Source: Candidatus Sulfopaludibacter sp. SbA3 (GTDB lineage Bacteria; Acidobacteriota; Terriglobia; 20CM-2-55-15). Taken from it: a stretch of 58,349 nt of DNA. Position 1 is the first letter of the stretch. Each line of letters opens with the position of its first letter. The stretch spans positions 1-58,349 of the forward strand of contig CAMBFR010000012.1 of assembly GCA_945865815.1 (NCBI GenBank), read 5' to 3'. Below are positions 5,532 to 52,205 of this stretch, piece by piece. The translations under genes and the position numbers were made by a program. Below the pieces are notes generated by a model. It worked only from the letters and a program-made list of their open reading frames with translations. It did not search any database and was not told the DNA's origin.

Positions 5532-5564
5532 CGATGAAGCTTAGCAGAGAATAGAAGGTGGAGA

Positions 5565-5618
5565 TCTGGGGACAGACTCCGAATTCCTGACCCGCGGACT
5601 TCGGAGTCTGTCCCCAGA
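5565..5618. repeat. GGGGACAGACTCC palindrome (19-bp arms)
   Basis: Bases 5565-5583 and 5600-5618 are reverse complements around a 16-nt spacer. The arm reads TCTGGGGACAGACTCCGAA. It has the same organisation as the element at 1-50 (GGGGAC edge, CTCCGAATTC inner part) and belongs to the same family. It lies in the spacer between the peroxiredoxin gene and trpS, close to another repeat. Confidence 0.8.
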
Positions 5619-5626
5619 GCTCAAAA

Positions 5627-5757
5627 TTCCCCTCCTGTTTTAGGAGGGGTGGCGCGAAGCGCCGGGGTGGGATTGAAGGTCCAAAGAGTCTTTCGATCTT
5701 TTTACCACCCCGCCTCGCTGTCGCTCGGGCTTCCCCTCCTAAAACAGGAGGGGAACT
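5627..5757. repeat. Compound inverted repeat, REPIN-like (CCCCTCCT...AGGAGGGG)
   Basis: Each end is a short hairpin, CCCCTCCTGTTTTAGGAGGGG on the left and CCCCTCCTAAAACAGGAGGG on the right, followed inward by CGGGGTGG on the left and its complement CCACCCCG on the right. The two ends flank a roughly 35-nt core (TGAAGGTCCAAAGAGTCTTT and following). The right half plus core (5674-5755) recurs at 52091-52174 with only a few differences. Two inverted REP units around a spacer is the REPIN arrangement. No transposase is nearby. Confidence 0.75.
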
Positions 5758-5790
5758 GCGTCTCCTTACTGCAAGAGACACCACTACCGT

Positions 5791-25559: not shown

Positions 25560-26435
25560 CTAACTCTTGTCCAGCATCATGAGCCCGAGCAGGGCGGGCA
25601 GATACAGAACGGAGATGCGAAGCAGGCGCTGCGCGTGCGTTGTGGATTGGAAAAGAGCCACAGCGAGGCCGTAGCCCAGGTAAACGAAACCCAATAGCAG
25701 CGCGCCGAACAGGTAATAGATGCCCGTGATCCCGAAAACTGTCGGCAGGAGGCTGATCGGAATCAGGGCGCAACAGTAGAAGATTATCTGCCGGCCGGTT
25801 CTTTCACTGCTGCCGTGCATGGTGAAACCGGCCCGCGCGTAGTCTTCAGTGAATATCCATGCGATCGCGAAGAAGTGCGGCATCTGCCACAGAAACAGGA
25901 TGGCAAAGAGGGAAAGGGCCACGGTATCGAGTTCGCCGCGGGCCGCTGCCCAGCCCATGATCGGCGGAGTGGCGCCGGGGAACGCGCCGATCAGCGTGCA
26001 CAGTTTGGTGCGCGTCTTCATCGGCGTGTAAATGAAAATGTAGGCCGCCAAAGTGGCGGCGCCGAGCAGGGCCGTCAGGACGTTCACAAAGACAGCCAGG
26101 TAGGCCATGCCCAGAACCGAAATGACTCCGGAGAAAAGCAGCGCATCGTTTGCCCCCATGCGGCCATCGGGCAACGGCCGGTTTCGTGTGCGCGCCATGC
26201 GGCTGTCCAGATCGCGCTCCAGGAACTGGTTGAACGCGCTGGCGCCGCTGGCCACAAGACCAGTTCCGACGATCGCGTTCAACAGCGGCAGAAGACGAAT
26301 TTCTTCGCCGGAACCCATGTAGTAGCCGACCAGCGTCGTGATCAGGACCATGAATGTGATCCGGGGCTTCGTGATCTCGATGTAGTCGGACGCGCGCGAG
26401 CGGCGAGCGGTCAGGTCAGCCTGTGTTATCTCCAT
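25560..26435 (-). CDS. ctaB: Haem O synthase (protohaem IX farnesyltransferase)
   Basis: CtaB attaches farnesyl to protohaem IX to make haem O, the first step to haem A. The 291-residue protein has UbiA-type helices with the Asp-rich motif NQFLERDLDSRMARTRNRPLP. The second motif region KTRTKLCTLIGAFPGATPPIMGW is complete. It lies between ctaA (20 nt upstream) and the ABC ATPase (4 nt downstream). The start MEITQADLTARRS has no signal peptide, as expected. Confidence 0.95.
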   Translation of the reverse strand: MEITQADLTARRSRASDYIEITKPRITFMVLITTLVGYYMGSGEEIRLLPLLNAIVGTGLVASGASAFNQFLERDLDSRMARTRNRPLPDGRMGANDALLFSGVISVLGMAYLAVFVNVLTALLGAATLAAYIFIYTPMKTRTKLCTLIGAFPGATPPIMGWAAARGELDTVALSLFAILFLWQMPHFFAIAWIFTEDYARAGFTMHGSSERTGRQIIFYCCALIPISLLPTVFGITGIYYLFGALLLGFVYLGYGLAVALFQSTTHAQRLLRISVLYLPALLGLMMLDKS

Positions 26436-26454
26436 GCCCGTTCCCTCGCCGTGA

Positions 26455-27414
26455 TCATATACCTGATTGCCGCGCCCTGCCGGGCTTCCATTCGTGGCCG
26501 CTCATGCCGAAAGCCCGCAGCGTCAGCACTACAGACGTTCCCAGGATAACGGCGCCGGTTGCAACGTGCGCAGTCGTGGGGACCACCGACTTCGCTGTAA
26601 GCACTGTCAGGGCGCCCAGCGTAAGCTGGACCACAACGAGCGCAAACATGGTCAGTGCGGGCCGGAAAAGCATTCGATAGCTTTTGAATTCGCGGGCTAT
26701 TCGCGAGAAGGTCCAAATGATCGTTCCCGTCACGATCGTCGCTCCAAGCCGATGAGCGAAGTGGATGGCGATGTTGGGCGAATTGAAAGGCGGAATAATC
26801 CGCCCGAACGCGAGAGGAAAATCCGGAATCGCAAGGCCCGAGTCGGTATGCCGCATCAGCGCGCCGAGTATGAGCTGCAGGTAAATTGCGGCCGTAGTCA
26901 GGCCGCAAAGCGCCGGCAAGCCAATACCCGCGGACTTGTCCGTGACCGAGGGTAAACCGTTCTTCCAGCCTGGAGACGTAAACAGCGCGAGTGACACCAC
27001 CAGGCAGAAGAATGTCTGGGCCAGGCAGGCGTGGGTCATCGAAATTGCCGTGGGCAGAAGATAGATGACGGTCAGGCCGCCGAGGATTCCCTGCGTCAGA
27101 ACAGCGAAGAAGGCCGCGACGCTCAACCGGCGAACCCAGGCGCGCTTTTCCGTGGCGCAGGTCCAGATCGTGAGGATCACGGTAAGGAACCCGACGAAAG
27201 CGGCGACCATCCGATGGCCGTGCTCATAAAAGATTCCTCCCACCATCGGCGGGAAAAACATGCCGTACGAGAGCGGCCAGTCCGGAACGGCGAGGCCCGA
27301 TTCCGTGCTGGTGACCAACCCACCTACAAAGATCAGGAAGGCCGTGCAAAAAGAAGTGAAGAGGGCGAATCGGTGCAAGCCGATACTTCCGCCCTCTAAA
27401 AAGTGCCGTGACAT
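26455..27414 (-). CDS. ctaA: Haem A synthase (CtaA/COX15 type)
   Basis: CtaA oxidises the C8 methyl of haem O to formyl, giving haem A for aa3/ba3-type oxidases. The 319-residue protein has eight helices, with His ligands in YEHGHRMVAAF, SMTHACLAQ, LMRHTDSGLAIPDFPLAFG and HFAHRLGATIV. The duplicated segments ESGLAVPDWPLSYG and DSGLAIPDFPLAFG show the two-half structure. The last 16 codons lie in a copy of a dispersed repeat (26462-26504), so the C-terminus was probably changed by the repeat. Confidence 0.94.
   Translation of the reverse strand: MSRHFLEGGSIGLHRFALFTSFCTAFLIFVGGLVTSTESGLAVPDWPLSYGMFFPPMVGGIFYEHGHRMVAAFVGFLTVILTIWTCATEKRAWVRRLSVAAFFAVLTQGILGGLTVIYLLPTAISMTHACLAQTFFCLVVSLALFTSPGWKNGLPSVTDKSAGIGLPALCGLTTAAIYLQLILGALMRHTDSGLAIPDFPLAFGRIIPPFNSPNIAIHFAHRLGATIVTGTIIWTFSRIAREFKSYRMLFRPALTMFALVVVQLTLGALTVLTAKSVVPTTAHVATGAVILGTSVVLTLRAFGMSGHEWKPGRARQSGI
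26462..26504. repeat. GGCTGCGCCCT family repeat, third copy
   Basis: This 43-nt stretch matches the copies at 31372-31414 and 43372-43414 at about 35 of 43 positions by eye, with the shared GCGCCCT, GGGCTT, CATTCG and GCCGCTCAT blocks. It overlaps the 3' end of ctaA and supplies the codons for its last residues. It is more diverged than the other two copies. Confidence 0.7.
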
Positions 27415-27433
27415 GTCTTGAATTCGAATCTAC

Positions 27434-27470
27434 CTGTGGACGCGGGGCCCTTTTATTGAAGGGCCCCGCG
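27434..27470. repeat. CTGTGG-GCGGGGC family hairpin (12-bp stem)
   Basis: Bases 27441-27452 (CGCGGGGCCCTT) and 27459-27470 form a perfect 12-bp stem around a 6-nt loop. The left edge CTGTGGA places it in the same family as the elements at 1859, 39590 and 47029. It lies 15 nt after the lipoprotein stop on the minus strand. No U-tract follows on that strand, so it is at best a pause or RNA-stability hairpin. Confidence 0.75.
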
Positions 27471-27484
27471 CAAAAGACCGAAAA

Positions 27485-28282
27485 CTAGTCGGCCGCCGCT
27501 GCGGCGCTGAACGAGAAGCCGAGATCTTTCGTCTCGCTGCCGGCAACTGTGACCATCTGGGTCTTCATTCCGTACTTCTCATGCCATGCGACGATTTCAT
27601 ATGTGCCGGGAGGCAGTTTCAGCGAGTACGCGCCGCCAGCGCCGGACACGGTGTGGAACGGATGACTGAAAACACCCGCGAAAGAGTTCATCCATCGATG
27701 AACGTCGCAGCGGATAGGAAGGGGCACTTCTTCCTTGTCGAGGTTGATGTTGTTCTTCATGCCCTGAACAGCCTGACCGATGTTGACCGGGGTATTCGTT
27801 TCGGCCCAGACGTGAATGTTGTGCAGGGTCATGTCGCTGTTCCGTACTTCCAGGGGCTGTCTGACCATCATTGTGAATACGTGCGGGCTGTAATGGCAGC
27901 CCTTCTGATCGATCACGATGGGTGCCGCCGGCGTCGCAAAGGTCAGGCCGGCCGGGGCCGTCTTGACGTAAACGATAACGTTTTCCAGTCCGCCATCGCT
28001 TACTTTCACTTCTTCACTCACGCTGGTTTCGGGAGTGGCGCTCATGGCGCAATAAGGATCCGCCGACATCTGAATGCGCGCCGCCGGAGGCGGCGTGCCT
28101 TCAAAGGCGATCTTCCCGCTGACAGTTCCCGTTGCGGTGGCCATGTCGAATGTCGCCCCGCCGGGCGCGCCGCCGGCGGGTGCGGGTGGAAGACCTGAGG
28201 TGTCATTGCCACCACCGCCACAGGCCGCGGCCAGCGCAAGCACCAGAATCGACGAGCAGACAAACACCAGTCGTTTAGGCAT
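27485..28282 (-). CDS. Cupredoxin-like exported lipoprotein of the respiratory operon
   Basis: The 265-residue protein has a signal peptide with a lipobox (LALAAAC), then a Gly/Pro linker. The core KIAFEGTPPPAARIQMSADPYC ... GCHYSPHVFTM ... SDMTLHNIHVWAETN ... IRCDVHRWM ends with the ordered Cys-x2-His-x2-Met reminiscent of a type I copper site. A C-terminal carboxypeptidase-regulatory-like beta-sandwich (GGAYSLKLPPGTYEIVAWHEKYG) follows. It probably shuttles electrons or copper, by inference. ATG 28282 has GGAG 9 nt upstream; an ATG at 28297 would include that site. It sits between the octahaem gene and ctaA. Confidence 0.8.
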   Translation of the reverse strand: MPKRLVFVCSSILVLALAAACGGGGNDTSGLPPAPAGGAPGGATFDMATATGTVSGKIAFEGTPPPAARIQMSADPYCAMSATPETSVSEEVKVSDGGLENVIVYVKTAPAGLTFATPAAPIVIDQKGCHYSPHVFTMMVRQPLEVRNSDMTLHNIHVWAETNTPVNIGQAVQGMKNNINLDKEEVPLPIRCDVHRWMNSFAGVFSHPFHTVSGAGGAYSLKLPPGTYEIVAWHEKYGMKTQMVTVAGSETKDLGFSFSAAAAAD

Positions 28283-28352
28283 CGTTAGAATCTCCATTGT
28301 TATAAGGTTGAAACTCTCAATAAAGTTATCTGTATGACTATATTAGAAGGGA

Positions 28353-28393
28353 AAAAGGGACGCACACTTAATTTTTCAGTGTGCGTCCCTTTT
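28353..28393 (-). terminator. GGGACGCAC family hairpin, terminator-like on the minus strand
   Basis: Bases 28353-28368 and 28378-28393 form a perfect 16-bp stem around a 9-nt loop. On the minus strand the stem ends in a run of U (about CCCUUUUU), so it could terminate or attenuate transcription after the octahaem gene. Its GGGACGCAC sequence links it to the repeat at 1-50, so it is a mobile-type palindrome in a regulatory position. Confidence 0.6.
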
Positions 28394-28412
28394 CTCGGCC
28401 GGCCACAGGCTG

Positions 28413-31355
28413 CTAGTCGTTCGTCGAGGTGACGGGAGCAGGCCGGCGCCTGCCGCCACTCAACGTAATGAACATGTGGTCCCGAATTGCCTCGATCTGC
28501 GACCGCACGTTTGCACCCAGGAAGTTCGTTAGTGGACTGGGCCTGTCGGGGCCGTCCGGGAAGAACGTCGGCATTCGCGTGCCCGGCATGATCTTCTGCG
28601 GATCCACCAGCCAGTTCAGAACCCACTCCGGGCGCAGTCGCTCGTGCGCGATCATCAGGTTTGGCGCCAGGTCCTCAGCGGATACGCCCGGGGGCGGCGG
28701 GCCGGTGCTGGTGGGGTGGCACTTGGCGCACTGCAAAGTCGTGAACAGTTGCCCTGCCGCCTGCAGCTTTTCGTTGTTCGTCGCGATATCCGTCGTGATG
28801 AATGGGTAATCCACATTGTCCAGCGCCGAGAAATAGCGGCCAATAGTCGCGCTTTCCTGCTCCGTGAAATGGAAAGTCGGCATCCGGGTCGTGAGCCACG
28901 GCCGCAGCCTGGTTGTTGAAGGATCCTTCACGAACGTATGCAGCCACATGGGCTGGGTTTTCGCTCCCTGCGTTGCAAGGTTCGGCGGCCACATCGCCTG
29001 ATCCATGGTGGCGCGAATATCTCCGCCGGCTCCTTCGATCAGGTGGCAGCCCTTGCAGTTCTTTTCGGCCACCAGCAAACGGCCCTCGGAGATCGCGGCA
29101 GTTGTCCGGTCGCGCATTTCGAGAGGAACCGGATCCTTCACGAGGCTGGTCAGGACCATCGCGATGGAATTGACTTCGTCCTCACTGAAGCGGAAGTTCG
29201 GCATCTTCAGTAATTCTTCCGGCCGTTTCACGCGGCCGACGTCGAAGATCCGAGGGTCCTTCAGCTTCGCTTCGTACCATCCGCTCCGCGAATGCTCGAT
29301 GTTGAGGAAACCGAAATCGAACTGCGAGATCAGCTTGCTGCCGGCCACGGTGAGTTCCGTGCCGATCGGCTGGGCATTCTCGAATCCCGGAATAGTGTGG
29401 CAGCCGAAGCAACCGTAACGTCCAACCAGGCGTTCTCCCGCAAAAAGGGTCTTTTGCTCGGGAGTCATGGTCGCCAGGGTCTGGCGGGCTTCGATGTCGG
29501 TTGAACCGGCCCGCAGTATTTCCACGGTAATTTCGTCCAGCGCTGCGGCATCCGCCTGGGGCAGCGCCTGGGAGTCGAACTCGGTGTTTTTCAGGGACGT
29601 CAGATACGCCGTCACGTCTGCGGCTTCGGCGTCGGTCAGGCGCAGGCTCGGCATCTTTGTGCCGGGCCAAACCTGTTGGGGATCCTTCACCCAGTTAAAA
29701 ATCCAGTTTGCCGTAACCTTGCTGCCCTGGCTCGCCAGGTTGTAACCATGCTTTCGCCGTGTCTGGCTCTGCCGTTCGGCTTCCTGTATTGGCCCGATCG
29801 CATGGCAGCCGTAACAACCCACGGACTCCACCAGCTGCTTGCCGCGCTCGGCGCTTCCGCCATTGCGGCCCTGGGGCAACGTTTGCGATCTGGACTTTGA
29901 GAACAGGTATTCGGTAATCGCGTTTATCTCGGCGGCGTTACGCTTGTCCCATCCTGACGGAGTGGCATTCTCTGTTCCGCTGTTGTTGCTGTTCCCCCAG
30001 AACTGCGGCATTCGCGCTTCAGGTTTGAATGCCTTTGGATTAGCCAGCCACTTTCGCACCCAATCCTTCGAAAGCTTTCCGGAAACGGTGGAGAGATCCG
30101 GTCCGACTTTGCGCACATTCTCGTAGCCTGGAATCCGATGGCAGCCGAAGCAGCCATAAATCCGGATCAGATCGCGGCCGGTATTGAGCGATGGGGCATT
30201 CGGAACGTCGGCGCTGGCGTTGTGGCATTTGTAGCAACCCGCTTCGATGTTGTTCATTGCGAACATCGGGGTTTCAAGATAATGCTCCTCGTGCCAGCCG
30301 TACTTTTCCTCCCACTCCGTCCGCTGCTCGGGAGTGCGCGGCATGTGTCCCGCGGTCTGGAAGTCCACTGCCCGGTCAAGACCGCTGTGGCAGCTTGTGC
30401 AGCCGAACTGCTCCACCGGATGGGCGGAGCTGGCCGCCAGGTAAAGGTCCATTTGCGGATGGGTCTTGAAAGGCTGGGGAGCGTTCTCAAACGCCGGCTG
30501 GTCGATGCCAAGATGACAGGTCGTGCAGCGATCGACGCGGGGAACCAGCTTGAACGGGTGCTCGTAAAACAGGTTTGGCAGCAGGATCTGGTTCACGCGC
30601 TCTGACGGAGCCAGCATGTCCAGCACCGGCGCGTTTCGAATCGATGTCACAACGGCGCCCGGATTCAGCGCATTCATTCGCAGTTGCAGGCGCTGGTAAT
30701 CTCCGAGCATCCCGTCGACTTCCGTCTGGATCACGGCGCGCTGGCCGACGAACTTGTTGAGCTCGGCGGTGACGTTACGGATCTCGATCGTCAGCTTGTC
30801 GACTTCAGCCTTGTACTCGTTCATCCCCTGCTCAGTTTCGCGCAACTGCGTCCCGAGCTGCTCGACATTGGAAGCCTTGAGTGCGAGAGCTTCTTCGTAC
30901 TCGTACTTTTCCGCATCGTAGATTGCTTTTTCGAACTGATAGTTCTGATTGACGGCGAAGAAGTCCGCCTGCAGATCGGCGATCTGATCCTGAATTCCTT
31001 CGATCTGAGCCTCGTTCTGTACCTGTCCTGCCTGCGCCTGCTGTAACTGCTGCTGAAGCTGGTCGAAGCGGGCCCGGTCAATCGCCGACGCGGCCTGATT
31101 CATGTCCTGCTGGGTGTTTGCCACACTCAGGCGGTTGAATTCCCGCTGGTACCGCTTCCAGTCGCGGGAGTAGTCGGCCAGAATCATTCCGACGGTAAAG
31201 ACGAACAGCAGCAGACTCGAGATGGCGAACCACTTATGCAGATGATCGATCTGGTAAAGCCGGTCGCCCCTCTTCTCGATGTTCAGTGCGGGAATCTTCT
31301 TGGCTGGTGTCGGTATCGGCGGCTTGTGGCCGCCATTGGGACTTTCACTACTCAC
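28413..31355 (-). CDS. Octahaem cytochrome c with N-terminal membrane anchor and coiled coil
   Basis: The 980-residue protein carries eight CxxCH haem motifs: CTTCH (about 277-281), CTSCH, CYKCH, CFGCH, CYGCH, CFGCH, CKGCH and CAKCH (about 876-880). It has one transmembrane helix at about residues 43-62 (WFAISSLLLFVFTVGMILA), then a coiled coil of about 150 residues. The haem region holds several cytochrome c-type repeats (GCYGCHAIG..., RMP..., ITEYL). The neighbours are cytochrome b6-type, subunit IV-type and Rieske genes. This protein probably takes electrons from the Rieske centre, replacing cytochrome c1 or f. All haem motifs have the standard five residues. Confidence 0.92.
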   Translation of the reverse strand: MSSESPNGGHKPPIPTPAKKIPALNIEKRGDRLYQIDHLHKWFAISSLLLFVFTVGMILADYSRDWKRYQREFNRLSVANTQQDMNQAASAIDRARFDQLQQQLQQAQAGQVQNEAQIEGIQDQIADLQADFFAVNQNYQFEKAIYDAEKYEYEEALALKASNVEQLGTQLRETEQGMNEYKAEVDKLTIEIRNVTAELNKFVGQRAVIQTEVDGMLGDYQRLQLRMNALNPGAVVTSIRNAPVLDMLAPSERVNQILLPNLFYEHPFKLVPRVDRCTTCHLGIDQPAFENAPQPFKTHPQMDLYLAASSAHPVEQFGCTSCHSGLDRAVDFQTAGHMPRTPEQRTEWEEKYGWHEEHYLETPMFAMNNIEAGCYKCHNASADVPNAPSLNTGRDLIRIYGCFGCHRIPGYENVRKVGPDLSTVSGKLSKDWVRKWLANPKAFKPEARMPQFWGNSNNSGTENATPSGWDKRNAAEINAITEYLFSKSRSQTLPQGRNGGSAERGKQLVESVGCYGCHAIGPIQEAERQSQTRRKHGYNLASQGSKVTANWIFNWVKDPQQVWPGTKMPSLRLTDAEAADVTAYLTSLKNTEFDSQALPQADAAALDEITVEILRAGSTDIEARQTLATMTPEQKTLFAGERLVGRYGCFGCHTIPGFENAQPIGTELTVAGSKLISQFDFGFLNIEHSRSGWYEAKLKDPRIFDVGRVKRPEELLKMPNFRFSEDEVNSIAMVLTSLVKDPVPLEMRDRTTAAISEGRLLVAEKNCKGCHLIEGAGGDIRATMDQAMWPPNLATQGAKTQPMWLHTFVKDPSTTRLRPWLTTRMPTFHFTEQESATIGRYFSALDNVDYPFITTDIATNNEKLQAAGQLFTTLQCAKCHPTSTGPPPPGVSAEDLAPNLMIAHERLRPEWVLNWLVDPQKIMPGTRMPTFFPDGPDRPSPLTNFLGANVRSQIEAIRDHMFITLSGGRRRPAPVTSTND

Positions 31356-31371
31356 GATTCAGCTCCAAAAC

Positions 31372-31414
31372 TTGATGGCTGCGCCCTGTGGGGCTTGCAT
31401 TCGCAGCCGCTCAT
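31372..31414. repeat. GGCTGCGCCCT family repeat, copy in the bc operon
   Basis: The 43-nt sequence TTGATGGCTGCGCCCTGTGG and on to CATTCGCAGCCGCTCAT differs from the copy at 43372-43414 at about 4 positions. The ends GGCTGCG and CGCAGCC are inverted repeats, as are inner CCC/GGG bases, so it can form a bulged hairpin. It begins 17 nt before the octahaem start on the transcript side and ends at the base before the subunit IV stop codon. Confidence 0.8.
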
Positions 31415-32494
31415 CTAAATATTAAAAAAGTATTCAGGTATACCCACGATGTACTTCAAGTTAAACAACCACCGCAAAACCATCTTGATCGGCAGAGACG
31501 CCATGGCCAGCAGCAGGAAGACCATGGTGTGGTATCGCGCTGCCCCGAGCGTGTTGTAAAAGCGCTTGAACGAGGTTTTCGCTAACACCGCCGGAATGGC
31601 AAGGAAATACGCCAGAATTGCGATGAATCCAAATATCTCGCGGATCAAGGGATTTCCCGGCAGGCCCATGCCCAGCGCCTTGACCCAGATGTATTCCGAG
31701 AGGTTTACATTCACCAGCGCCTCGAGCTTGTGAAGATCCCAATACTCGTATGGCCCGAAGAAACTCCAGTTGGGACCGCGCAGGAATGTGCCAAGGATGA
31801 CGAGCAGTATCCATAGGACCAGGAATCCAAAGAGAAAGACCGAAATCTCCCACTTGCGCTCTTTGAGCGTGTAGTAGCCGTTACCTTTCGGGTTTGTGTC
31901 GATGTAGGGAATTGCCATCAGGCCCACAATAATCAGGCTTGGAAAAACCACGCCTGCAAGCCACGGATCGAAGTAGACGAGCATTTCCTGGAGTCCCAGG
32001 AAATACCACGGCGCTTTCGATGGATTCGGCGAAGCGGAGGGATTCGCAGGCTCTTCGATTGGCGCCGGCAGCAACAGGGACCAGCCAATGAGCACCACGG
32101 TCAGCACGACCATGCAGATCAGTTCGGTGTAAACCAGATCCGGCCAGGTGAGAACCTTCTCGGCAGTCTCTTCCTGCTCGGTGAGAGGCTTTCCGTCTGC
32201 AAGTCTCTTATCGTTGCGCACGGCTTCCCGCATGGAGAACCATGTGAAGAAAGGCACCAGGAAAAGCATCCCCACGATCGGAACATTGTCCGGCTTGCTG
32301 ACGATCAGTCGAAAATCCGCGTCGAACATGCTCAGCACCAGGAAGAGAGCCATTCCCGAAAAAACAATGGCCGCCGCCCTGTCGGTATAGAACTTGTGGG
32401 GATACCTGAGCGAAACGAACAGCAGCGCCGACGCAAGCACGATCAGGATCTTGGGATCCGATAGAAAATTGATGAAGTCTTTTATGAATTCCAT
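31415..32494 (-). CDS. Cytochrome b C-terminal/subunit IV-type protein
   Basis: The 359-residue membrane protein matches the C-terminal half of cytochrome b, as in b6f subunit IV. The quinol-site-type stretch is APWYFLGLQEMLVYFDPW, preceded by LTWPDLVYTELICMVVLTV. It has two N-terminal helices before this region (PKILIVLASALLFVSLRY and FSGMALFLVLSMFD) and further helices after it, making it longer than subunit IV (about 160 aa). It forms the quinone-binding part of the complex with the cytochrome b6-type protein, whose gene ends 6 nt upstream of its start. Confidence 0.9.
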   Translation of the reverse strand: MEFIKDFINFLSDPKILIVLASALLFVSLRYPHKFYTDRAAAIVFSGMALFLVLSMFDADFRLIVSKPDNVPIVGMLFLVPFFTWFSMREAVRNDKRLADGKPLTEQEETAEKVLTWPDLVYTELICMVVLTVVLIGWSLLLPAPIEEPANPSASPNPSKAPWYFLGLQEMLVYFDPWLAGVVFPSLIIVGLMAIPYIDTNPKGNGYYTLKERKWEISVFLFGFLVLWILLVILGTFLRGPNWSFFGPYEYWDLHKLEALVNVNLSEYIWVKALGMGLPGNPLIREIFGFIAILAYFLAIPAVLAKTSFKRFYNTLGAARYHTMVFLLLAMASLPIKMVLRWLFNLKYIVGIPEYFFNI

Positions 32495-32500
32495 GTGTTT

Positions 32501-33325
32501 CTATACCGGTCCGGAAATTCCGCCGTCACGCCGGATGCGCCAGAAGTGAATCGCCATCAGGAAACCCGCCACCAACGGCAGACCGACGCAGTGGAGTACG
32601 TAAAAACGGAGCAGCGCGGCTTCGCCCACAAACCTTCCACCAAGCAGCGCAAACCTCGCATCGCTCGTGTTGCTGACAAGAGGAATGTCGCCCAGCGTCA
32701 GCAAAGCGGCGCCGGGTCCTTCATGTCCCAGGAACGGCGTGGCCCGCGCCATGCCGCTTCCCACCGTGATCGCCCAGATTGCAAGCTGGTCCCACGGCAG
32801 AAGGTAACCGGTAAAGCTCAGCAGTAACGTCAGGACGAGAAGAATCACGCCTACGTTCCAGTTGAACTCCCGGGGTGGCTTGTAGGAACCGGTCATGAAC
32901 ACCCGGTACATGTGGAGCCATACGGAAATCACCATTGCGTGCGCGCCCCACCGGTGAATCTCCCTCATGATTCCAAGCGGGACCTGCTCTCGCAAATCGA
33001 TAATGTCGACGTACGCGTACTCGAGCGTCGGACGGTAATAGAACATCAGCAGGAGACCGGTGAAGGTAAGAACAAGAAAGAGAAAGAAAGTAATGCCGCC
33101 CATGCACCACGTGTAGCGCATGCGAATACCCGATTTGCGGACCTTCACCGGGTGAAGGTGAAGAAAGACGCTTCCGAGCATGACGAGCATGCGTTTCCGG
33201 TCGGAGTCCGGAACACCGACGCGGAAAATGGAGCGATAAATCTGACTCTCCTGGATGTATTTCCCGACATTCGAGGGCGAAAGAAACTCCAGACCTTCTC
33301 GAAGCCGATCTTTCAAATTAGGCAT
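32501..33325 (-). CDS. Cytochrome b6-type protein
   Basis: The 274-residue membrane protein carries four bis-His ligands in the b6 pattern. The first pair is IHRWGAHAMVISVWLHMYR (14 residues apart) and the second YVLHCVGLPLVAGFLMAIHFW (15 apart). The loop GSYKPPREFNWNVGVILL and the Q-site helix FTGYLLPWDQLAIWAITVGS are typical. The short length and the separate subunit IV gene define a split b6f-like cytochrome b rather than a fused bc1 form. The Rieske gene lies upstream in the same operon. Confidence 0.94.
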   Translation of the reverse strand: MPNLKDRLREGLEFLSPSNVGKYIQESQIYRSIFRVGVPDSDRKRMLVMLGSVFLHLHPVKVRKSGIRMRYTWCMGGITFFLFLVLTFTGLLLMFYYRPTLEYAYVDIIDLREQVPLGIMREIHRWGAHAMVISVWLHMYRVFMTGSYKPPREFNWNVGVILLVLTLLLSFTGYLLPWDQLAIWAITVGSGMARATPFLGHEGPGAALLTLGDIPLVSNTSDARFALLGGRFVGEAALLRFYVLHCVGLPLVAGFLMAIHFWRIRRDGGISGPV

Positions 33326-33362
33326 AGTTCGTTAAGTTGTTAGCCGCGTAAATGCGGATTAA

Positions 33363-33965
33363 TTAAAGTTTCAAGAAAGAAGCCGGGTTCGACCACTCGC
33401 CCTTTTCCTGCTGGAATTTCCTGTTCTTGTCGACCACGATCTGGCCATCGGCGCCAAGGCTGATTGCAAAACGTTCGAGCGGACGAGGCGTCGGACCTTC
33501 GAAATTGACGCCATCCTTGTAATAACCGCTGCCGTGGCACGGACACTTGTATTTCTGTTCCGCTTCGAGCCAATTGGGTGTGCACCCCAGATGCGTACAC
33601 ACGGTGGAGAGGGCAAAAATACCCGCCTGGTCGCGAACGAGCCAGACGCCGAAGCGTTGCTTGAACCGTTCGTCCACCTGACCTACCTGGATTTCATTCG
33701 GGAGGCCGGCTTTGAAAGTAGCCGGAGGTTCAAAAAGGACATTTGGAAACATGAATCGCCCCGTTGCCGTCAACGTGGCGAGCATCGATGCTGTAAACGC
33801 AGCCCACGCCAGTGTCATCCATGAGAGGAAAGACCGGCGCGGCAGGACCGCCTTCGCAGGCCCAGCAGCCTTTGGAGCCGCGGCTTTGGGCGGGGCAGGC
33901 GTCGCAGGCGTCGCTGCCGGCCCGGTACCTGCCGCCGTGGGTTCTTTTGATTCCTCTTTACTCAT
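33363..33965 (-). CDS. Rieske iron-sulfur protein
   Basis: The 200-residue protein carries the 2Fe-2S site in CTHLGCTPNW and CPCHGSGYYKDG, with the two Cys and two His in the standard order and the flanking Cys pair. It has a Pro/Ala-rich N-terminus (residues 1-40), then a twin-Arg-like RRSFLSWMTLAWAAFTASML membrane anchor. The Rieske protein takes electrons from quinol and passes them to the cytochrome c subunit. It lies between the HEAT-repeat protein and the cytochrome b6-type gene. Confidence 0.95.
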   Translation of the reverse strand: MSKEESKEPTAAGTGPAATPATPAPPKAAAPKAAGPAKAVLPRRSFLSWMTLAWAAFTASMLATLTATGRFMFPNVLFEPPATFKAGLPNEIQVGQVDERFKQRFGVWLVRDQAGIFALSTVCTHLGCTPNWLEAEQKYKCPCHGSGYYKDGVNFEGPTPRPLERFAISLGADGQIVVDKNRKFQQEKGEWSNPASFLKL

Positions 33966-34010
33966 TTGGAATCTCTCCTACACCTATTAATTCGCTAGTT
34001 AATCCGAGTT

Positions 34011-34922
34011 TTAAAACTTCTTCAACGCTTCCAGTGAAACATCTCTGACGGACAGGTCAGGATCACTCCGGCTGAGATCGGATATCTTATCGCGAGCCGC
34101 CGGAAATTTCAGTATTCCAAGGCATTTAATAGCGTTTCTCATCAGCTCGTTCTTCTGTTCCTCGGTCATGCCTTCGAGCCGGGAAACATAACCGCGGTCG
34201 AGAAGCATCATCAAAAGATCCGCGCCCGCAGGATCCTGGAGCTGCGCGAGGGCGATCGCAGCGCTCCACTGTACATCCTTGCTGGGGTCGTTCAGGGCGA
34301 TCTGGAGATCACGGCTTGCCCTGGGATCCTTGATCGAGCCCAGCACATAGGCTGCCACCTTGCGAACGGAGGGATCCTCATTCCGCAGTTCGTTCACGAT
34401 GCCCGGAACCGCAGCATTGTCTCCAATCGTACCCAATGCCCACAACGTATAAATTTGATTCTCAACTTCGGGATCGTTCAAGCCTTCCGTTAACGCCGGC
34501 ACGGCTCGAGGGTCGCCAAGACGGCCCATCGTCAGGGCAAGGAACTGGCGAATTCGAGGATCCGTTCGCGTGGTGCTGCCTTCCTCGGAAGCATTGCCCC
34601 GCGAGTTCCGGTAAACCGCTGTCAGTTCTTCAACGAATCCGCTGTTTCTCAGCCGTTCTTTCTCGGTCGTGATGATGTTGGACAGCTCGTATGCGGCCTG
34701 CCAGCGCCTCGTGTCCGAGCCGGTTCGAATCTCGTTCAGATAGTCGCGCGCGTTTCTCTGTTCGTAGGTGAGGTATCCGAATAACAGAAAGATGCCGACA
34801 CAAATAGCGATGATGATCAGGGGAAAGAGGAAAAACTGCGCGACCAGCAGGGAGGTCGGTTTCTTTTCCTCCGCCAGATCTTCGACGGGTGGCATGGGAA
34901 CCGGATTGTTTTTCACTTCCAT
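34011..34922 (-). CDS. Membrane-anchored HEAT-repeat protein, first gene of the bc operon
   Basis: The 303-residue protein has one N-terminal transmembrane helix (LLVAQFFLFPLIIIAICVGIFLLFGYL, about 24-50). It is followed by HEAT-like repeats, such as DPRAVPALTEGLNDPEVENQ, DNAAVPGIVNELRNEDPSVR and DPRASRDLQIALNDPSKDVQ. It has no haem motif. Gene position, spacing (45 nt) and a candidate promoter upstream indicate it is expressed with the Rieske and cytochrome b genes. Its role is unknown. It may be a scaffold or assembly subunit of the quinol complex, by inference. Confidence 0.83.
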   Translation of the reverse strand: MEVKNNPVPMPPVEDLAEEKKPTSLLVAQFFLFPLIIIAICVGIFLLFGYLTYEQRNARDYLNEIRTGSDTRRWQAAYELSNIITTEKERLRNSGFVEELTAVYRNSRGNASEEGSTTRTDPRIRQFLALTMGRLGDPRAVPALTEGLNDPEVENQIYTLWALGTIGDNAAVPGIVNELRNEDPSVRKVAAYVLGSIKDPRASRDLQIALNDPSKDVQWSAAIALAQLQDPAGADLLMMLLDRGYVSRLEGMTEEQKNELMRNAIKCLGILKFPAARDKISDLSRSDPDLSVRDVSLEALKKF

Positions 34923-34957
34923 GTAGACGCGACCGACATCACCTATTCAAACAAAGA

Positions 34958-34987
34958 AGAATATGGGATTGCCTTCAACAAAATCAA
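34958..34987 (-). promoter_or_regulatory. Candidate sigma-70-like promoter of the respiratory operon
   Basis: On the minus strand TTGATT (34982-34987) is followed after 18 nt by TATTCT (34958-34963), about 36 nt before the ATG of the HEAT-repeat gene. This is the only clear candidate between the CoA-transferase end and the operon. The match is seen by eye only, and the motifs each differ from consensus by one to two bases. Confidence 0.35.
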
Positions 34988-35033
34988 GGCAGGACGACGA
35001 GCGGTAGTGACCGGGAATTTCTCCCAGCAGAAA

Positions 35034-36239
35034 TCAGGCGCCGTGAGCGGTTTCGGCAATGACGCCCCTTTTCAGCATATCGCCGATCTGTTCGGAGCTG
35101 TATCCCAGCTTGTCCAGCACTTCCCGATTGTGTTCGCCGAATCGCGGAGGAGCCTTGTCGACGGCGCCGGGCGTGGCGGAGAGTTTGATCGGCAGTCCAA
35201 GCACTCGCAGAGGGCCGTAATCGGGGTGCGTGAGTTCGACAATCATTTCGCGCGCGTGGATATGAGGATCCTCCATGATTTCTCCGACCGTATTGATGGG
35301 GCCTGCGGGAACGCCAACACCGGTCAGGCGGGCAATCACTTCCGAGCGGCTCAGTGCGCCGATGGCATTGTCTAATATGGGCTTGAGTTCATCGTAGTTC
35401 GCCACGCGGCCTCTCATGCTTGTGAAGCGTGGATCCGTCGCGATCTCGGAAAGGCCAAGCACGGCGCAGAAGTTTGCCCACTGCTTCTCGTTGGCCACGG
35501 CAATATTGACGAAGCCGTCCTTTGCATGAAACGCCTCGTAGGGCACGATCGACGGGTGCCTCGTTCCCATGCGCTTTGGCGAACGGCCGGTCGTCAGGTA
35601 AATGAGCGACTGGTATGTGAGTGTGGACACCATGCTGTCAAGAAGACTGACGTCGACATGCTGTCCCGTGCCGGTTCTATGACGCGCGAGCAGCGATACG
35701 GCGATTCCCTGGAATGCAAACATTCCCGTTACGATGTCTGCCAGGGATGCGCCCAGCTTTTGCGGTGGCCCGTCCGGATCGCCGGTCAGATCCATCACGC
35801 CGGACTCTCCCTGTGCGATCACGTCATATCCCGCCCGGTCTCGATAGGGCCCGGTTTGTCCGAAGCCCGAAATCGAGCAGTAAACGAGCCGGGGATTTCG
35901 CGCCGAAACAGCCTCGTAACCGAAACCCAACTTCGCAAGGACGCCGGGCCGGAAATTTTCGAGCAGCACATCGGCGCGCTCAATCAGCTTCCACAGGATT
36001 TCCCGGCCTTCATTGGCCTTGAGGTTGAGTCCGAGACTTTTCTTGTTCCGGTTGACGGAAAGAAAATAAGTACTGATTCCACCGATAAACGGCGGCCCCC
36101 ACTGCCGGCTGTCATCGCCAAGCGGCACAGGTTCGACCTTGAGTACTTCCGCTCCGAGATCGCCGAGCAACATCGTGCAAACCGGACCAGACAAAACTCG
36201 TGAGAGATCCAAAATGAAGAGATCGTCGAGCGGTTTCAT
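35034..36239 (-). CDS. CaiB/BaiF family CoA transferase (class III)
   Basis: The protein (401 aa) starts MKPLDDLFILDLSRVLSGPVC, the CaiB/BaiF opening. It contains VLLENFRPGVLAKLGFGYE, CSISGFGQTGPYRDRAGYD and the region GASLADIVTGMFAFQGIAV, whose Asp is the expected catalytic residue of the class. Family members move CoA between acyl donors in oxalate, carnitine and aromatic acid pathways, and the substrate here is not clear. ATG 36239 is preferred over a GTG at 36281, which adds a sequence with no family match. It is separate from the respiratory operon. Confidence 0.92.
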   Translation of the reverse strand: MKPLDDLFILDLSRVLSGPVCTMLLGDLGAEVLKVEPVPLGDDSRQWGPPFIGGISTYFLSVNRNKKSLGLNLKANEGREILWKLIERADVLLENFRPGVLAKLGFGYEAVSARNPRLVYCSISGFGQTGPYRDRAGYDVIAQGESGVMDLTGDPDGPPQKLGASLADIVTGMFAFQGIAVSLLARHRTGTGQHVDVSLLDSMVSTLTYQSLIYLTTGRSPKRMGTRHPSIVPYEAFHAKDGFVNIAVANEKQWANFCAVLGLSEIATDPRFTSMRGRVANYDELKPILDNAIGALSRSEVIARLTGVGVPAGPINTVGEIMEDPHIHAREMIVELTHPDYGPLRVLGLPIKLSATPGAVDKAPPRFGEHNREVLDKLGYSSEQIGDMLKRGVIAETAHGA

Positions 36240-36478
36240 GTCCGGAGATAATACTCGAAAAATAGGAACATAGTTTTCCACAGATAATTCAGCCCATCTA
36301 GTGCAACCAACTTGGTTGAACGGCTAAGGGCTTTTATTTCTGCTGTTTTCTGCTTTTAAGAATTTTTTTGGTTCGTGTTACAAAAAGTTTCCATTTTGTA
36401 GGACTGTTGGTTAGAATACCCGTCGTTCCAGCAATTTATGGATTGGTTCGCGAATTGCTCAATGTTGGTGGGTATTCT

Positions 36479-37633
36479 ATGTTGGTGAGCGATCAAACAC
36501 GCGATAACAACGGGCATCCTGTCATGCCTCTTCCAGCGCAGCCGCACTACGCATGGAAGACACGTGCTTACCCCGTGCCGTCGCCGACACGCAGCGGTTT
36601 CCGGTGGAAGGCCTCTGCACTTCGTGGACTGCCTCGATGGATGGGCGGATGCTCAGCCGCAAACCCAGTGACCGTCATTGTTCCAGCCCTGTACAACTTT
36701 CTTCCCGGCGAAAGTATTGCGATGGGCTGGTTCAACGAAATTGACGCGCTCACCACGATTCGCCAACGGATTATTCATTCCGCGAAACTTACCGGATGGG
36801 ATGTTTTTACATTCCACACTCTTCACAATCTCGATCATTATTTTGATTCGACGATTGCTGCAGTGCGGGAGACATGGGTTAAAGAAGGCAACCTTTCCAT
36901 TGATGCGATGGTCGAGACGAGGCGCCGCTTCGGCAAGCCTTACGACTACCATCGCGTTCAACCTCGCCTGATCGAGAATCTTGTCTTCCAATCGTCGCTC
37001 CTCGAATGGTTGAGTCATCGCGCGGCCGACGTTCCATTGCGTTTTCAGGTTATGGGCACAGCGCTGCTGTCGGCGTTGGTGTGGTCCGGCGCATTGCCGT
37101 TTGCATCTGCTGTCAAGGCTGCGCTGAAGATTGGCGAGCGCTGGGACAAGAGTATTGACGCGATGGTAGACGTGGAAAACCAGGACGACCGGGGCTGGCT
37201 CCGATTTGAAACCGTCCGGAACCTTGTCGAGGGCCGGAGCAACGTCTCGCTTGCCGTAGCGCGCGAAGATCTTCCGCGGCTCAGCGCGCCGGCGCGTCCA
37301 TTCTGGTATTGCGCCAATGCGAGGGAACACCCGATTCTGATCGAAACCGCTCACGATGCGACGGCAGTTCTGGAAACGCTGAACATCGCGTCGTGGTCTG
37401 CGGCCATGCCTAAGGCGAATGACGATTCGATCCGAGGCTGGCTGGTCAGCCCGCTCCACCCGATGGCACGGGCTTGCCGATGGAGCTTTTCGAACTACCT
37501 TCTGGCTACTCCCGGTGCGGTCACGCTGTTCGTCGACCACATCGCCAGCATTGGCCGGGCGCCGGTCATGATGATCGAGCCGACGAGAGAAGTCACCCGC
37601 GTCGCCCGGTTGGGCGCCCATCCCCGCACTTAG
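36479..37633 (+). CDS. Unrecognised protein, 384 aa
   Basis: I do not recognise this protein. The ATG at 36479 has a GGTGGG stretch just upstream; a longer frame from 36368 runs through AT-rich sequence. The product has hydrophobic stretches ([31 protein letters not shown]) but no clear signal peptide or lipobox. It has helical regions such as [19 protein letters not shown]. No catalytic motif is recognised. Base composition of the first 100-200 nt upstream is AT-rich compared with the neighbours. It converges on dtd, and the two stops overlap by 4 nt. Confidence 0.6.
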
Positions 37634-38079
37634 AATCTTTTTCTGCTATCCAGGATAAAAGTCACAGGACCGTCGTTTGTAAGCTCGACTTCCATCATTG
37701 CCTGAAAAACCCCGGTCGCCGTTGGAATCCTGAGACGGCCGATTTCGTCGACGAACTCCTGATAGAGGTTTCGCGCGAGGTCGGGATGCGCCGCGTGATC
37801 GAACGACGGCCGCCGCCCTCTTCGGCAGTCGCCAAGAAGCGTGAATTGCGAAACGGCAAGAATCGCTCCGCCTGTATCCGCGATGGTTCGGTTCATCTTT
37901 CCGGCTTCGTCTTCGAATATCCGCAACTCGACGATCTTCCGGGCAAGCCCTTGCGCGTCTTCCAGGGCATCATCCTTTTCGACACCGAGCAGGGCGAGTA
38001 TGCCGGGGCCGATTCGCGAGTGTTCATTCCCATCAATAATGACGCGGGCCTTCGAGACCCGTTGAATCACTGCTCTCAT
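37630..38079 (-). CDS. dtd: D-aminoacyl-tRNA deacylase
   Basis: DTD removes D-amino acids (and glycine) from mischarged tRNAs. The 149-residue protein starts [17 protein letters not shown] and carries both conserved motifs, [17 protein letters not shown] with the SQFTL block and [16 protein letters not shown] with the Gly-cisPro block. It is full length. It lies just after the DHH phosphoesterase gene (17 nt gap) on the same strand and overlaps the convergent 384-aa gene by 4 nt. Confidence 0.96.
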
Positions 38080-38095
38080 GGCTGTGTTCTGTAAT

Positions 38096-39433
38096 TTACT
38101 TTGTGCTGTGCAGGCTTCGCAGAAATTCCTGCTCGGCCTTGCGATTCATCGCGCGGATATTTCGCGGATCGATTTCCCAGCTGTGGGAAATCTGGGAGAG
38201 GGGAATGATGGCCTTGGCCATGGTGGCGTGGCCGCCGGCCGAACCAATTTCGCCGAACGCATCCTTGATAACGCGGCCCGCGGCGCGCACATAACCCACG
38301 TTCCGGATCGAAATAATGTAGTTGGAGTCGTATATGCCGCTTACAAAGGCCCACTCGATTCCTTCGAATGACAGGCTGAAATCGGCCATCTGCGGAATGA
38401 GATCGTCGCGCTCCACGCGGCCGAGATGAACGAATGCGACCTTGTCGATGATGCGGCGGTTCTTCAGGCCAAGGCTGAGCGCATCAAGGGCGGCCGGGGG
38501 CAGTTCCGGACGCTCGATGCGCCGCATCAGGTTCTGGTTTGCCAGGGGGTACAGGTGAGAGAACGCTTCGACGTCCCATTCGTTGACTTCGCGGGAAAGC
38601 GAGAACGTGTCGCTCTTGATTCCGTACAGCAGTGCCGTGGCAAGCCGTGTTGGGATGCTGGCGTTAGTACAGAGCAGGTACTCCAGCAGAATCGTAGACG
38701 TTGCGCCGTATCCCGGCCGGATATCCTTTATATGACTTTTGTAGGTGAATTGTTCCGGATGATGGTCGATGACAAGATCCACATACTCGGGCGGGTTGGC
38801 AAGGTGAGGAGGCTGAAGGTCTACAACCGCTATCCGGTCGGCCTCCTGCAGACTCTGCGTAGTGACCTTTGCGATTTCAATCTCAAGCAATTTCACCATC
38901 GCGATGTTTTCAGGCCGGGTCACTCTTCCAAAAGAGCAAATCGGCGCCGTCTGCTTGTTGCGGCCGAGCACTTGCCGCAGCGCAAGACCGCTTGCTATTG
39001 CGTCCGGATCGGGATCGTCCTGTAACAGGATGACGATCGATGCGGCGTCGTGGAAATGCGCACGCACTTCCTCCACGTTTCGCATAGTCCGTGCCAGGCG
39101 GATCTGCCATCGCAGATTCGATTCCAGGAGTTCGTGAAGCGAAACACAGTGGGCAAAACTCCTGTACTTTTCGGGGAGACGATCGGCGTGTGAGGTCAGT
39201 ACGAGCGTGGCAACCTTGCGGCTTTGCTGGCGGACGGCCTCGAGAATCCCGCCGAGCTTTTCAGGATCTTCGGATTGAGCGACAAACAGGTCAATCGAAC
39301 TCCTGGCTATCTGCTCGCCAAGATTGCCGTTCGTTCCCCGCTTGACGGACTGTGCCGTATTGCCGTTGCCTGCGAAATAGTCTTTCAGAAGACTGGCAAC
39401 AAAGTCTTCCTCGACATAGAAGAGCGACTTCAT
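38096..39433 (-). CDS. DHH/DHHA1 phosphoesterase (NrnA-like) with extra N-terminal domain
   Basis: The 445-residue protein has the DHH catalytic motifs: [39 protein letters not shown] and the GGHATMAK motif of the DHHA1 domain. Such proteins hydrolyse short RNAs (nanoRNase), pAp or cyclic dinucleotide products. The first about 120 residues ([28 protein letters not shown] and on) form an additional Rossmann-like or receiver-like domain not present in standard NrnA of about 320 aa. The exact substrate is unknown. It is followed by dtd. Confidence 0.88.
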
Positions 39434-39460
39434 AGCCGTTCAGGCTTGCCTGCCAGCAGC

Positions 39461-39492
39461 AAATAAAAATGCACCTTCAATTCTGAAGGTGC
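39461..39492 (-). terminator. Rho-independent terminator of the M20 peptidase gene
   Basis: The 9-bp stem GCACCTTCA/TGAAGGTGC (39471-39479 and 39484-39492) has a 4-nt loop. On the minus strand it is followed by the U-rich run ATTTTTATTTG (about 39461-39470). It lies between the M20 peptidase stop (39633) and the DHH gene start (39433), so it separates the two transcripts. Confidence 0.75.
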
Positions 39493-39589
39493 TGAGGTAT
39501 TACAGATAAGTTCCACGACGTCTAGTCAACACTTCATTCTAGATACGGTGATCCGACCGTGTAAAGACGTTTCTCCGGCGGCAGTCTCA

Positions 39590-39623
39590 CCTGTGGGTGC
39601 GGGGCTTTATCCCCGTGCCGGCA
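39590..39623. repeat. CTGTGGGTGCGGGGC family palindrome
   Basis: The sequence CCTGTGGGTGCGGGGCTTTA followed by TCCCCGTGCCGGCAG is an imperfect inverted repeat, of the same family as those at 1859, 27434 and 47029. It lies 10 nt from the stop codon of the M20 peptidase on the minus strand. Confidence 0.7.
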
Positions 39624-39632
39624 GCGTACTCC

Positions 39633-40760
39633 TCACAGCCGCTCTATCATTCCCGCCAGCAGGCCCGCGCGGAGCGGGAGCGAATCGATTTCCACGTGTT
39701 CGTCCACGGCATGGGCGCCATCTCCGATGGGACCAAGGCCATCCAGAGTCGGGATACCCAGTGCGGCCGTCAGGTTCCCGTCGGAGGCCCCGCCCGTTGA
39801 GCCCTCTTTCAAGTCGATTCCAATCTCTGCCGCGATGTCTTGAGCGGCTTTGAACAGTCGGGCCGTTTCCGCAGTCCGCTCCATCGGTGGTCTGCTGATG
39901 GAGCCTCGTACCTCAAGCCGCGCCCCGGCCAGTTCGGGTGTCAGCGAACGAATGGCTTTCGTAATTCGATCGGCCTCTTCCATTGATTCAACGCGCACGT
40001 CCACTTCAATGCCGGCTTCTGCCGGTACGACGTTCGATCGGGTACCACCCTGAACCACGCCGACCGTGACGGTTGTTCCTCCCGGGCCGCTCATACCCTG
40101 CAGTCTGATGATCTGGCGCGAAATCTCCTCGATCGCGTTGATTCCCTTCGACGGGTCGATACCGGCATGGGCCGCCCGCCCGATGGCTTTCAGCGTGAAA
40201 CGGCCCACGCCTTTGCGCGCCGTCTTCAGGACTCCGCCCGGAAGCGAAGGTTCCAATACAAGAACCGCGCTCGATTGGCCGGCTTCGGATTCGATAAGAC
40301 CGCGTGATGAGTTGCTGCCGACCTCTTCATCGCTGGTCAGCAGCACGGTGACGGATCGCGCGAGTCCCGGGCGAAGTTCCTGCAATGCGGAGAGAGCCAT
40401 CCACATCAGTACGATGCCGGCCTTCATGTCGAAGACTCCCGGTCCGTATGCCCTGTTGCCATCAATCCTGAAGGGACGTTTCTGGATCTCGCCGGCAGGC
40501 CATACGGTATCGGTATGGCCCAGCAGGAGGATGCGTCCTTTATCAGGGCCTGCAAACCGCACGCGCAAGTGATTCCCAAAACGCTCGGCGTTGATGAAAT
40601 CGACCTGCCCTCCAATTTCATGAAAGCGCTCGCCCAGAAACGACACAAATTCGTCGACCATCCGCTTTTCAAAGCTCGGTGACTCCATGGTGACCATCTG
40701 TTCGAGAAGGCGAAGCGACTCTGGAAGTTTCCGTTCGAGGTGCGAGAGGAGCTCGTTCAT
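39633..40760 (-). CDS. M20-family metallopeptidase (CPG2-like)
   Basis: The 375-residue protein carries the two-zinc M20 motifs. LLLGHTDTVW gives the first His and Asp, GVFDMKAG the bridging Asp, TSDEEVGS the catalytic Glu pair, VLEPS another Glu ligand and DGAHAVDEH the last His. The dimerisation domain with GRAAHAGIDPSKGINAIEEISRQI lies between. The pattern fits glutamate carboxypeptidase (CPG2-like) and related enzymes. ATG 40760 is chosen because upstream codons overlap the divergent glycosyltransferase region. No signal peptide is present. Confidence 0.92.
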   Translation of the reverse strand: MNELLSHLERKLPESLRLLEQMVTMESPSFEKRMVDEFVSFLGERFHEIGGQVDFINAERFGNHLRVRFAGPDKGRILLLGHTDTVWPAGEIQKRPFRIDGNRAYGPGVFDMKAGIVLMWMALSALQELRPGLARSVTVLLTSDEEVGSNSSRGLIESEAGQSSAVLVLEPSLPGGVLKTARKGVGRFTLKAIGRAAHAGIDPSKGINAIEEISRQIIRLQGMSGPGGTTVTVGVVQGGTRSNVVPAEAGIEVDVRVESMEEADRITKAIRSLTPELAGARLEVRGSISRPPMERTAETARLFKAAQDIAAEIGIDLKEGSTGGASDGNLTAALGIPTLDGLGPIGDGAHAVDEHVEIDSLPLRAGLLAGMIERL

Positions 40761-40794
40761 TGATGCGTCCGAGCATAGACTATAATCCCGTGCG

Positions 40795-41889: not shown

Positions 41890-41893
41890 AGTT

Positions 41894-43339: not shown

Positions 43340-43340
43340 A

Positions 43341-43494
43341 GCCCTCATCCGGCTCTTCGGGCTACTTTAATTTGACGGCTGCGCCCTATCGGGCTTGCAT
43401 TCGCAGCCGCTCATGCTCCCAGAGGGAGAAGGACTATTTAGAGAATTGTCCTTACTCCCTCCGGGAGAGGGTGCCGCGAAGCGGCGGGTGAGGG
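43341..43494. repeat. Nested compound palindromic repeat
   Basis: The right half (43448-43494) is a 47-nt unit, GTCCTTACTCCCTCCGGGAG followed by AGGGTGCCGCGAAGCGGCGG and GTGAGGG. The left half has the same unit inverted (CCCTCATCCGGCTCTTCGGGC ... CTCCCAGAGGGAGAAGGAC) but broken at about 43362 by a roughly 50-nt insertion. The insertion contains a GGCTGCGCCCT family repeat (43372-43414). The two halves surround TATTTAGAGAATT. This is a REPIN-like pair with one repeat inserted into another. It fills the gap between the M18 gene and rfbA. Confidence 0.7.
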
Positions 43495-43515
43495 AACGCA
43501 GATCGAGGAAAAGAA

Positions 43516-52081: not shown

Positions 52082-52090
52082 ATCGAATAT

Positions 52091-52174: not shown

Positions 52175-52205
52175 TTGAAAAACAACGCGGTACACTGGCG
52201 CCGCC

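Follow-up and report, generated by a model that had tools for sequence, protein, structure and literature searches.

A short hairpin repeat at stop/start junctions and initiation sites of Candidatus Sulfopaludibacter sp. SbA3, with a copy that has altered the end of CtaA

The genome of Candidatus Sulfopaludibacter sp. SbA3 harbors a family of short hairpin repeats, at least 93 copies of which were found, lying preferentially at stop/start junctions and translation-initiation regions and mostly oriented with the downstream gene. Many of the sites read empty in a sister genome, and one copy has replaced the C-terminal residues of CtaA. We interpret the repeat as a small, non-autonomous mobile element that favors harmless stop/start and initiation sites in the manner of the mycobacterial MIRUs, a reading to which we assign a probability of about 0.8. 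The starting point was a 58,349-nt stretch of DNA, called here the window, which is contig 12 of an assembly of 193 contigs and 4,342,588 bases (G000). A search of the open-licence literature brought up no apparent description of the element.

Results and Discussion

Copies in the window

Three copies of a 46-nt family are present in the window, at 26460-26505, 31369-31414 and 43369-43414, which corroborates the three sites of the initial annotation. The length of 43 nt given there holds for the core; the full unit measures 46-47 nt. The middle copy shares 80% and 91% identity with the other two, and the three score 58.7, 72.1 and 73.8 bits, far above chance, with R1, a covariance model derived from an alignment of 33 copies. 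All are short forms whose sense strand is the minus strand and begins ATGAGC. Copy 1 forms the in-frame last codons of ctaA (26455..27414, minus strand; COX15/CtaA family, Pfam COX15-CtaA), which is followed by a gene for a UbiA-family prenyltransferase, ctaB by position (25560..26435, minus strand). The gap between these genes is 19 nt here, while in the sister genome G001 ctaA overlaps the start of the UbiA-family gene. The distances to upstream stops reported earlier were also right: copy 2 adjoins the TAG of a gene of the cytochrome b C-terminal domain family (31415..32494, minus strand) and copy 3 begins 29 nt past the stop of an M18 peptidase gene. Thirteen nucleotides separate copy 2 from the GTG that starts the next gene downstream (28413..31355, minus strand), which encodes a 980-aa protein with cytochrome c domains. 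Copy 3 is antisense to both neighbors. An Rfam scan of window positions 26000-44000 gave no family at gathering score and two matches below it.

A second repeat found between genes (CTCATCCGGCCCTTCGGGCCACCTT ... GCTCCCGGAGGGAGAAGGAC) encloses copy 3 with its two halves (43340-43368 and 43415-43434). This repeat carries the element at one internal place on contigs C56, C96, C23, C7, C142, C6, C58, C45 and C146 as well; ten copies of the genome, including copy 3, fit its flank by a 6-base criterion, C146 being doubtful. The second repeat and the element may spread as a unit. Other repeats were seen at 5554-5758 and 52089-52177, related to each other through a 43-nt block of 95% identity (CCCCTCCTAAAACAGGAGGGG). 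The two apparently represent another intergenic repeat family, and strong inverted repeats occur at 5554-5758. A perfect inverted repeat of 21 nt (GGGGACGCACCTCCGAATTCC) lies at the contig start (1-50) and a copy related to it at 5577-5606; a repeat may form the end of the contig.

Sequence, hairpin and copy number

With R1, at least 93 copies in the 4.34-Mb genome reached 40 bits among the 150 of 4244 candidates that were scored, and the next-best score, 25.8 bits, leaves a clear gap below them. The initial DNA search had given at least 48 matches (40 of 94 candidates scored). An exact core pattern, sought on both strands of the whole genome, matched 61 times, against none for the reversed pattern.

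The sense-strand unit reads ATGAGCGGCTGCGAATGCAAGCCCGATAGGGCGCAGCCATCAAGNN(N), has an outer stem of 7 bp and an inner stem of 3 bp, and ends in ATGAGC on one side and CATCAAG on the other. Its 5' ATGA is nearly constant (A in 114, T in 115, G in 118 and A in 118 among the 119 distinct short copies). Two length classes are found: 83 of the 93 copies are at most 57 nt long, nearly all of them 45-46 nt, and 10 measure 82-83 nt, their loop being enlarged by an additional 36-37 nt with an inverted repeat of its own. On alignment A3, which had been aligned to the model, 97.9% of cells were paired and 5 cells were changed on both sides, against a mean of 0.3 after shuffling; the first alignment, A2, was too uniform and gave no covariation signal.

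A small ORF of 13-16 codons runs through the short form. Selection on its peptide was not visible, since the frame-0 synonymous excess was matched in frame 2; sixteen of the frame-0 differences are stops.

The arrays seen are head-to-tail, with tandem steps, counted over copies of this genome and its relatives, of 47 nt in 13/28, 46 nt in 8/28, 83 nt in 3/28 and other lengths in four. Within them the 5' ATGA of one unit occupies the target position of the next. Inverted pairs of the BIME/REPIN type were absent from the arrays, apart from which one 22-bit inverted fragment lies near C7:13949. A CRISPR array was considered and rejected, as the arrays, periodic at 46-47 nt, hold nothing but the repeat, with no unique spacers.

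The element is present in 9 of the 11 genomes searched from the family of the window and absent from the two that belong to genus g2. Of the remaining 110 relatives in the set of 121 searched, one (G113) gave a single marginal match. In an even sample of 396 genomes across the phylum, R1 detected it in G000 and G003 only.

Position relative to genes

Genes were called with our own codon-score script, trained on 12 long ORFs of the window. Geometry in arrays was counted on end copies, the 3'-most for the downstream gene and the 5'-most for the upstream gene. As background we took 607 permissible V/ANGR sites (a slash marks the insertion point) lying at most 12 nt inside a called gene in 82 kb (the window and loci L207 and L208). 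The downstream gene is sense-directed in 69/76 of the 3'-most copies, against 366/607 background sites, and its start lies within 20 nt in 39/76 (background 91/607) and within 2 nt in 16/76 (35/607). An upstream stop at -4 to +3 accompanies 32/75 of the 5'-most copies (25/607), and both features together, such a stop and a start within 20 nt, occur in 18 of 69 singletons (13/607). One-sided Fisher P values for the comparisons of single features (sense direction, the two start distances and the stop) range from 4e-5 to 3e-19, the sites not being fully independent. The upstream gene is sense-directed in 53/75. The 32 stops are distributed over -4 (18), -1 (5), 0 (3), +1 (2), +2 (3) and +3 (1). 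The 18 at -4 are partly self-made, because the element carries TGA in its ATGA, which truncates any ORF entered in that frame. The copies of the relatives, taken from the best-scoring matches with genes called by the same script and counted with no background of their own, gave a sense-directed downstream gene in 58/60, a start within 20 nt in 29/60 and a stop in 18/66.

ATG or A[ACG]G[AG] begins within a 5-base range at the 3' end in 63/78 of the 3'-most copies here and in 58/69 of those of the relatives; the first 3' flank base is A in 73% and 67%, respectively, and a G stands three bases after it in 76% and 71%. T is very rare as the base preceding the element (1% in either set).

The initial annotation had proposed a bias for 3' gene ends. 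The proximity to stops stands; the preference itself is for stop/start junctions and translation-initiation regions, with ATG or AAGG/AGGA/ACGG as targets and an orientation that mostly follows the downstream gene (69/76). This bias is not evident from the three window copies alone, and copy 3 disobeys it. Junction location is a preference and no strict rule: 28/76 end copies are separated by over 20 nt from any called sense start, 7/76 have an antisense gene downstream, and in 2/76 a start was called inside the element.

Empty and filled sites in a sister genome

The joined flanks of 59 loci were sought in G001, 20 of them selected for good junction geometry (clear junctions) and 39 being further un-nested singletons. 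Twenty-one sites read empty (10 + 11 in the two sets), 11 occupied (5 + 6), and 27 were not found, partial or unclear (5 + 22). Clean empty sites reveal exact insertions of 47 or 83 nt at ATGA or TAATG stop/start overlaps. At C17:25721, TACTC/ATGA has become TACTC-47 nt-ATGA; at C3:47144, TACA/ATGA gains 83 nt; C3:56663 (GATC/ATGA) and C103 (CACAAG/ATGA) are also clean. At C59 (GGTA/ATGA) and C46 (GATA/ATGG) the upstream TAA overlaps the ATG. At C73, where AGGA was the target, the protein encoded upstream is shorter by two residues than its counterpart in G001. The weakest empty state is that of C13:8686, a poor copy, and the exact edges are uncertain at C40, C86, C15:47890 and C99:5705. At C88, C130:2430 and C17:25721 the element is missing from more distant relatives too, so insertion is likelier than loss at these three sites.

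Of 11 shared sites, six carry the short form in this genome and the long form in G001 (C2:1470, C117, ctaA, C1:38092, C15:34410 and C57), and three carry the short form in both (C99:13101, C25 and C101). C44 has one long unit here and two short ones in G001, and C59:21629 is single here and double there. At this last site (L192) an ORF begins with a decayed copy read in frame, with two tandem copies at C197 of G001 (L381); the ORF residues after the decayed copy seem to resemble SmpB.

The altered end of CtaA

As first annotated, the repeat overlaps the end of ctaA and encodes its last residues: copy 1 encodes MSGHEWKPGRARQSGI and a stop. Its sense strand is ATGAGCGGCCACGAATGGAAGCCCGGCAGGGCGCGGCAATCAGGTA, followed by T and then the target ATGATC, and the last 16 codons of ctaA correspond to the element plus one target base. 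The 47 nt cause a frameshift to the TGA within ATGATC. In G001, whose CtaA is 92% identical to the one here, the long form occupies the site, with 84 nt from ATG to ATG; it is in frame and is followed by the retained former tail, with MITARERAWR and a stop. The former tail is lost here because the short form shifts the frame, and it remains readable in the downstream DNA. The proposed alteration of the C-terminus is borne out by G003 of the same family, which has no repeat there: its CtaA ends RAFGMVSKRQPAAIYPFREPAWK and reads, past a conserved Met (RA[FY][GA]M or RSFAM/RSYAM), VSKRQPAAIYPFREPAWK and a stop. In G009, G004, G007, G008 and G002 other, shorter tails follow the conserved Met and are unlike the element. 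R1 found no confident element at the ctaA loci of these six genomes, the weak matches, 15.1 bits at L244 (G008) and 13.8 bits at L239 (G004), lying outside the tail. G010, from another genus of the family, has the tail SGAHADAIARSKDQMLIDRVPAWK and, at it, an R1 match of 19.1 bits (E 0.00045; L238, 2407-2447), perhaps a decayed copy or a related element family. The tail comparison leaves aside G005 (L242 and L034, apparently one contig), for which the script gave no tail, and in G006 a CtaA match was not found.

The target ATGA in ctaA was internal and in the frame of the element ORF, so that the element came to be translated within CtaA. A later loss of 37 nt from the loop of the copy here would have shifted the frame and cut off the old tail. 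The simplest cause would be slippage across the AAGCCCGA and AAGCCGA-like sequences that flank the loop insert. The further suggestion that such an insertion is tolerated in a membrane enzyme is tested only weakly, because the altered residues lie beyond the Pfam CtaA match (residues 62-294 of 319).

Proposed mode of insertion

The proposed element measures about 47 nt, or about 83 nt when a further hairpin is nested in its loop. It would insert in one orientation before an ANGR-like sense sequence (YCNT on the opposite strand). Targets of low harm would be of two kinds: starts overlapping a preceding stop, as in ATGA and TAATG, and Shine-Dalgarno-like sequences such as AAGG and AGGA. At an ATGA or TA/ATG junction, the nearly constant ATGAGC end puts a stop codon into the frame that remains, and the target ATG stays the start codon of the following gene. 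Both flanking proteins are thus unchanged at such junctions. Copies would survive by landing in these harmless sites, and ribosomes may be relayed from the upstream stop through the small ORF to the downstream start. Where a start lies 0-2 nt away (28 copies), the element ORF ends within -8 to +5 of it in 18, positions that fit termination-reinitiation.

Transfer would take place via single-stranded DNA. TCAT is nearly constant at one end and a YCNT-like flank is found at the other, and the ATGA end is kept with an AAGG target. The constant end, the other end supplied by the flank and the hairpin resemble single-strand reactions of the IS200/IS605 type.

Comparison with known systems

Like the element described here, MIRUs occur in tandem copies and have the same polarity as the flanking genes; they are not known to show dyad symmetry. 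The element has a clear hairpin and two length classes arising from a loop insert, belongs to another phylum and also targets Shine-Dalgarno-like stretches. According to the sections of PMC12548453 that deal with them, MIRUs insert at start codons, with an ORF coupled to the downstream gene at -4 spacing, and this coupling is thought to soften the effect of insertion (citing Supply et al. 1997). The likeness, as far as that account goes, lies in a short, apparently mobile repeat at start codons and stop/start overlaps of co-directional genes. On that description the element would work like a MIRU, by analogy and not by shown descent. Of the 28 copies whose downstream start lies at 0-2 nt, 7 show the exact -4 geometry, and 16/28 tandem steps (47 or 83 nt) give it.

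Rickettsia palindromic elements (RPEs) sit in frame within ORFs, as does the element in ctaA. Together with the CGTC-tagged repeats, in the portions of PMC3733652 that treat them, they share with our element a palindromic structure, a tetranucleotide tag and the lack of an associated transposase gene. The bases corresponding to the CGTC tag are mostly CATC here (second base A in 91% and G in 8% of the 3'-most copies of this genome), and insertion is mainly between genes. REP sequences and REPINs with their RAYTs, treated in PMC3733652 (see also PMC2817692 and PMC3116915), are likewise short, palindromic, present in many copies, mostly intergenic and probably non-autonomous. The element differs in the missing GTAG end, the head-to-tail arrays and the strong junction preference, and no RAYT gene with adjoining copies was found among the searched loci.

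Alternative explanations

Ordinary REP sequences moved in trans by a RAYT (Y1) and left between genes once purifying selection has cleared the other insertions, with the junction pattern as a by-product of the ANGR target and selection, are a somewhat unlikely explanation. The hairpin would suit it, as would the arrays in which the 5' ATGA of a unit stands at the target position of the next, and the one nearly constant end with a flank-supplied partner, as in IS200/IS605-type reactions. One Y1_Tnp gene was found in the genome. Selection and target choice may explain part of the start bias, because permissible ANGR sites already lie within 20 nt of a start in 91/607 cases; selection alone, however, would need to raise this share from 15% to 51%. 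The GTAG end is absent, and the Y1 genes themselves do not follow the element. Beside Y1 genes at ten loci (L111 and L208 of this genome and eight of relatives, searched at one locus per genome, though G004 has four Y1 genes) nothing exceeded 15 bits, the best match being 14.3 bits and within a coding region. In a comparison covering 8 of 12 Y1 loci, the Y1 protein here is 45% identical to that of G001, too diverged for a plain vertical orthologue given the 92% of CtaA. Furthermore, G002 and G005 have Y1 genes and no element, while G006 and G008 (88% and 81% complete) have the element and no Y1 gene that we found. A RAYT as dedicated mobilizer was rejected on account of the missing linkage in the searched loci and of sister proteins far more diverged than CtaA.

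A conserved cis-regulatory RNA or attenuator, its immobile hairpin being part of the downstream genes' 5' leaders, would account for the orientation toward these genes, the location at initiation regions and the few compensatory changes in the hairpin. It is improbable in view of the 21 of 59 orthologous sites that read empty in the sister species, the tandem arrays, the nested copies, the copy within ctaA and the Rfam scan of 26000-44000, where no family reached its gathering score. Very improbable indeed is that the ctaA tail is ordinary coding sequence resembling the repeat by convergence, or that ctaA was the source of the repeats. In two species the tail reads in frame, a point in favor, but its unit also occurs at 93 places in the genome, the tails past the conserved Met differ in G003, G009, G004, G007, G008 and G002, and the copy in the ctaA of G001 is of the long-loop form, as in 10/93 copies here. 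The small mobile element with a preference for harmless junctions remains our preferred reading.

Conclusions

In broader terms we propose, tentatively and at slightly less than even odds, that junction-specialized elements with their own stop and a tiny coupling ORF arose independently in Acidobacteriota and mycobacteria, the stop and ORF letting them spread harmlessly between co-directional genes. The hairpin here would be recognized by a putative single-strand DNA enzyme, and the traces left would be rewritten protein tails and separated start/stop pairs. The family adds a second lineage with short repeats at likely translational-coupling junctions. Sites naturally empty in one sister species and filled in another would allow a direct test of whether such insertions preserve or break coupling, and the case of ctaA illustrates that a junction element inside a gene end can rewrite the protein tail differently in two close species.
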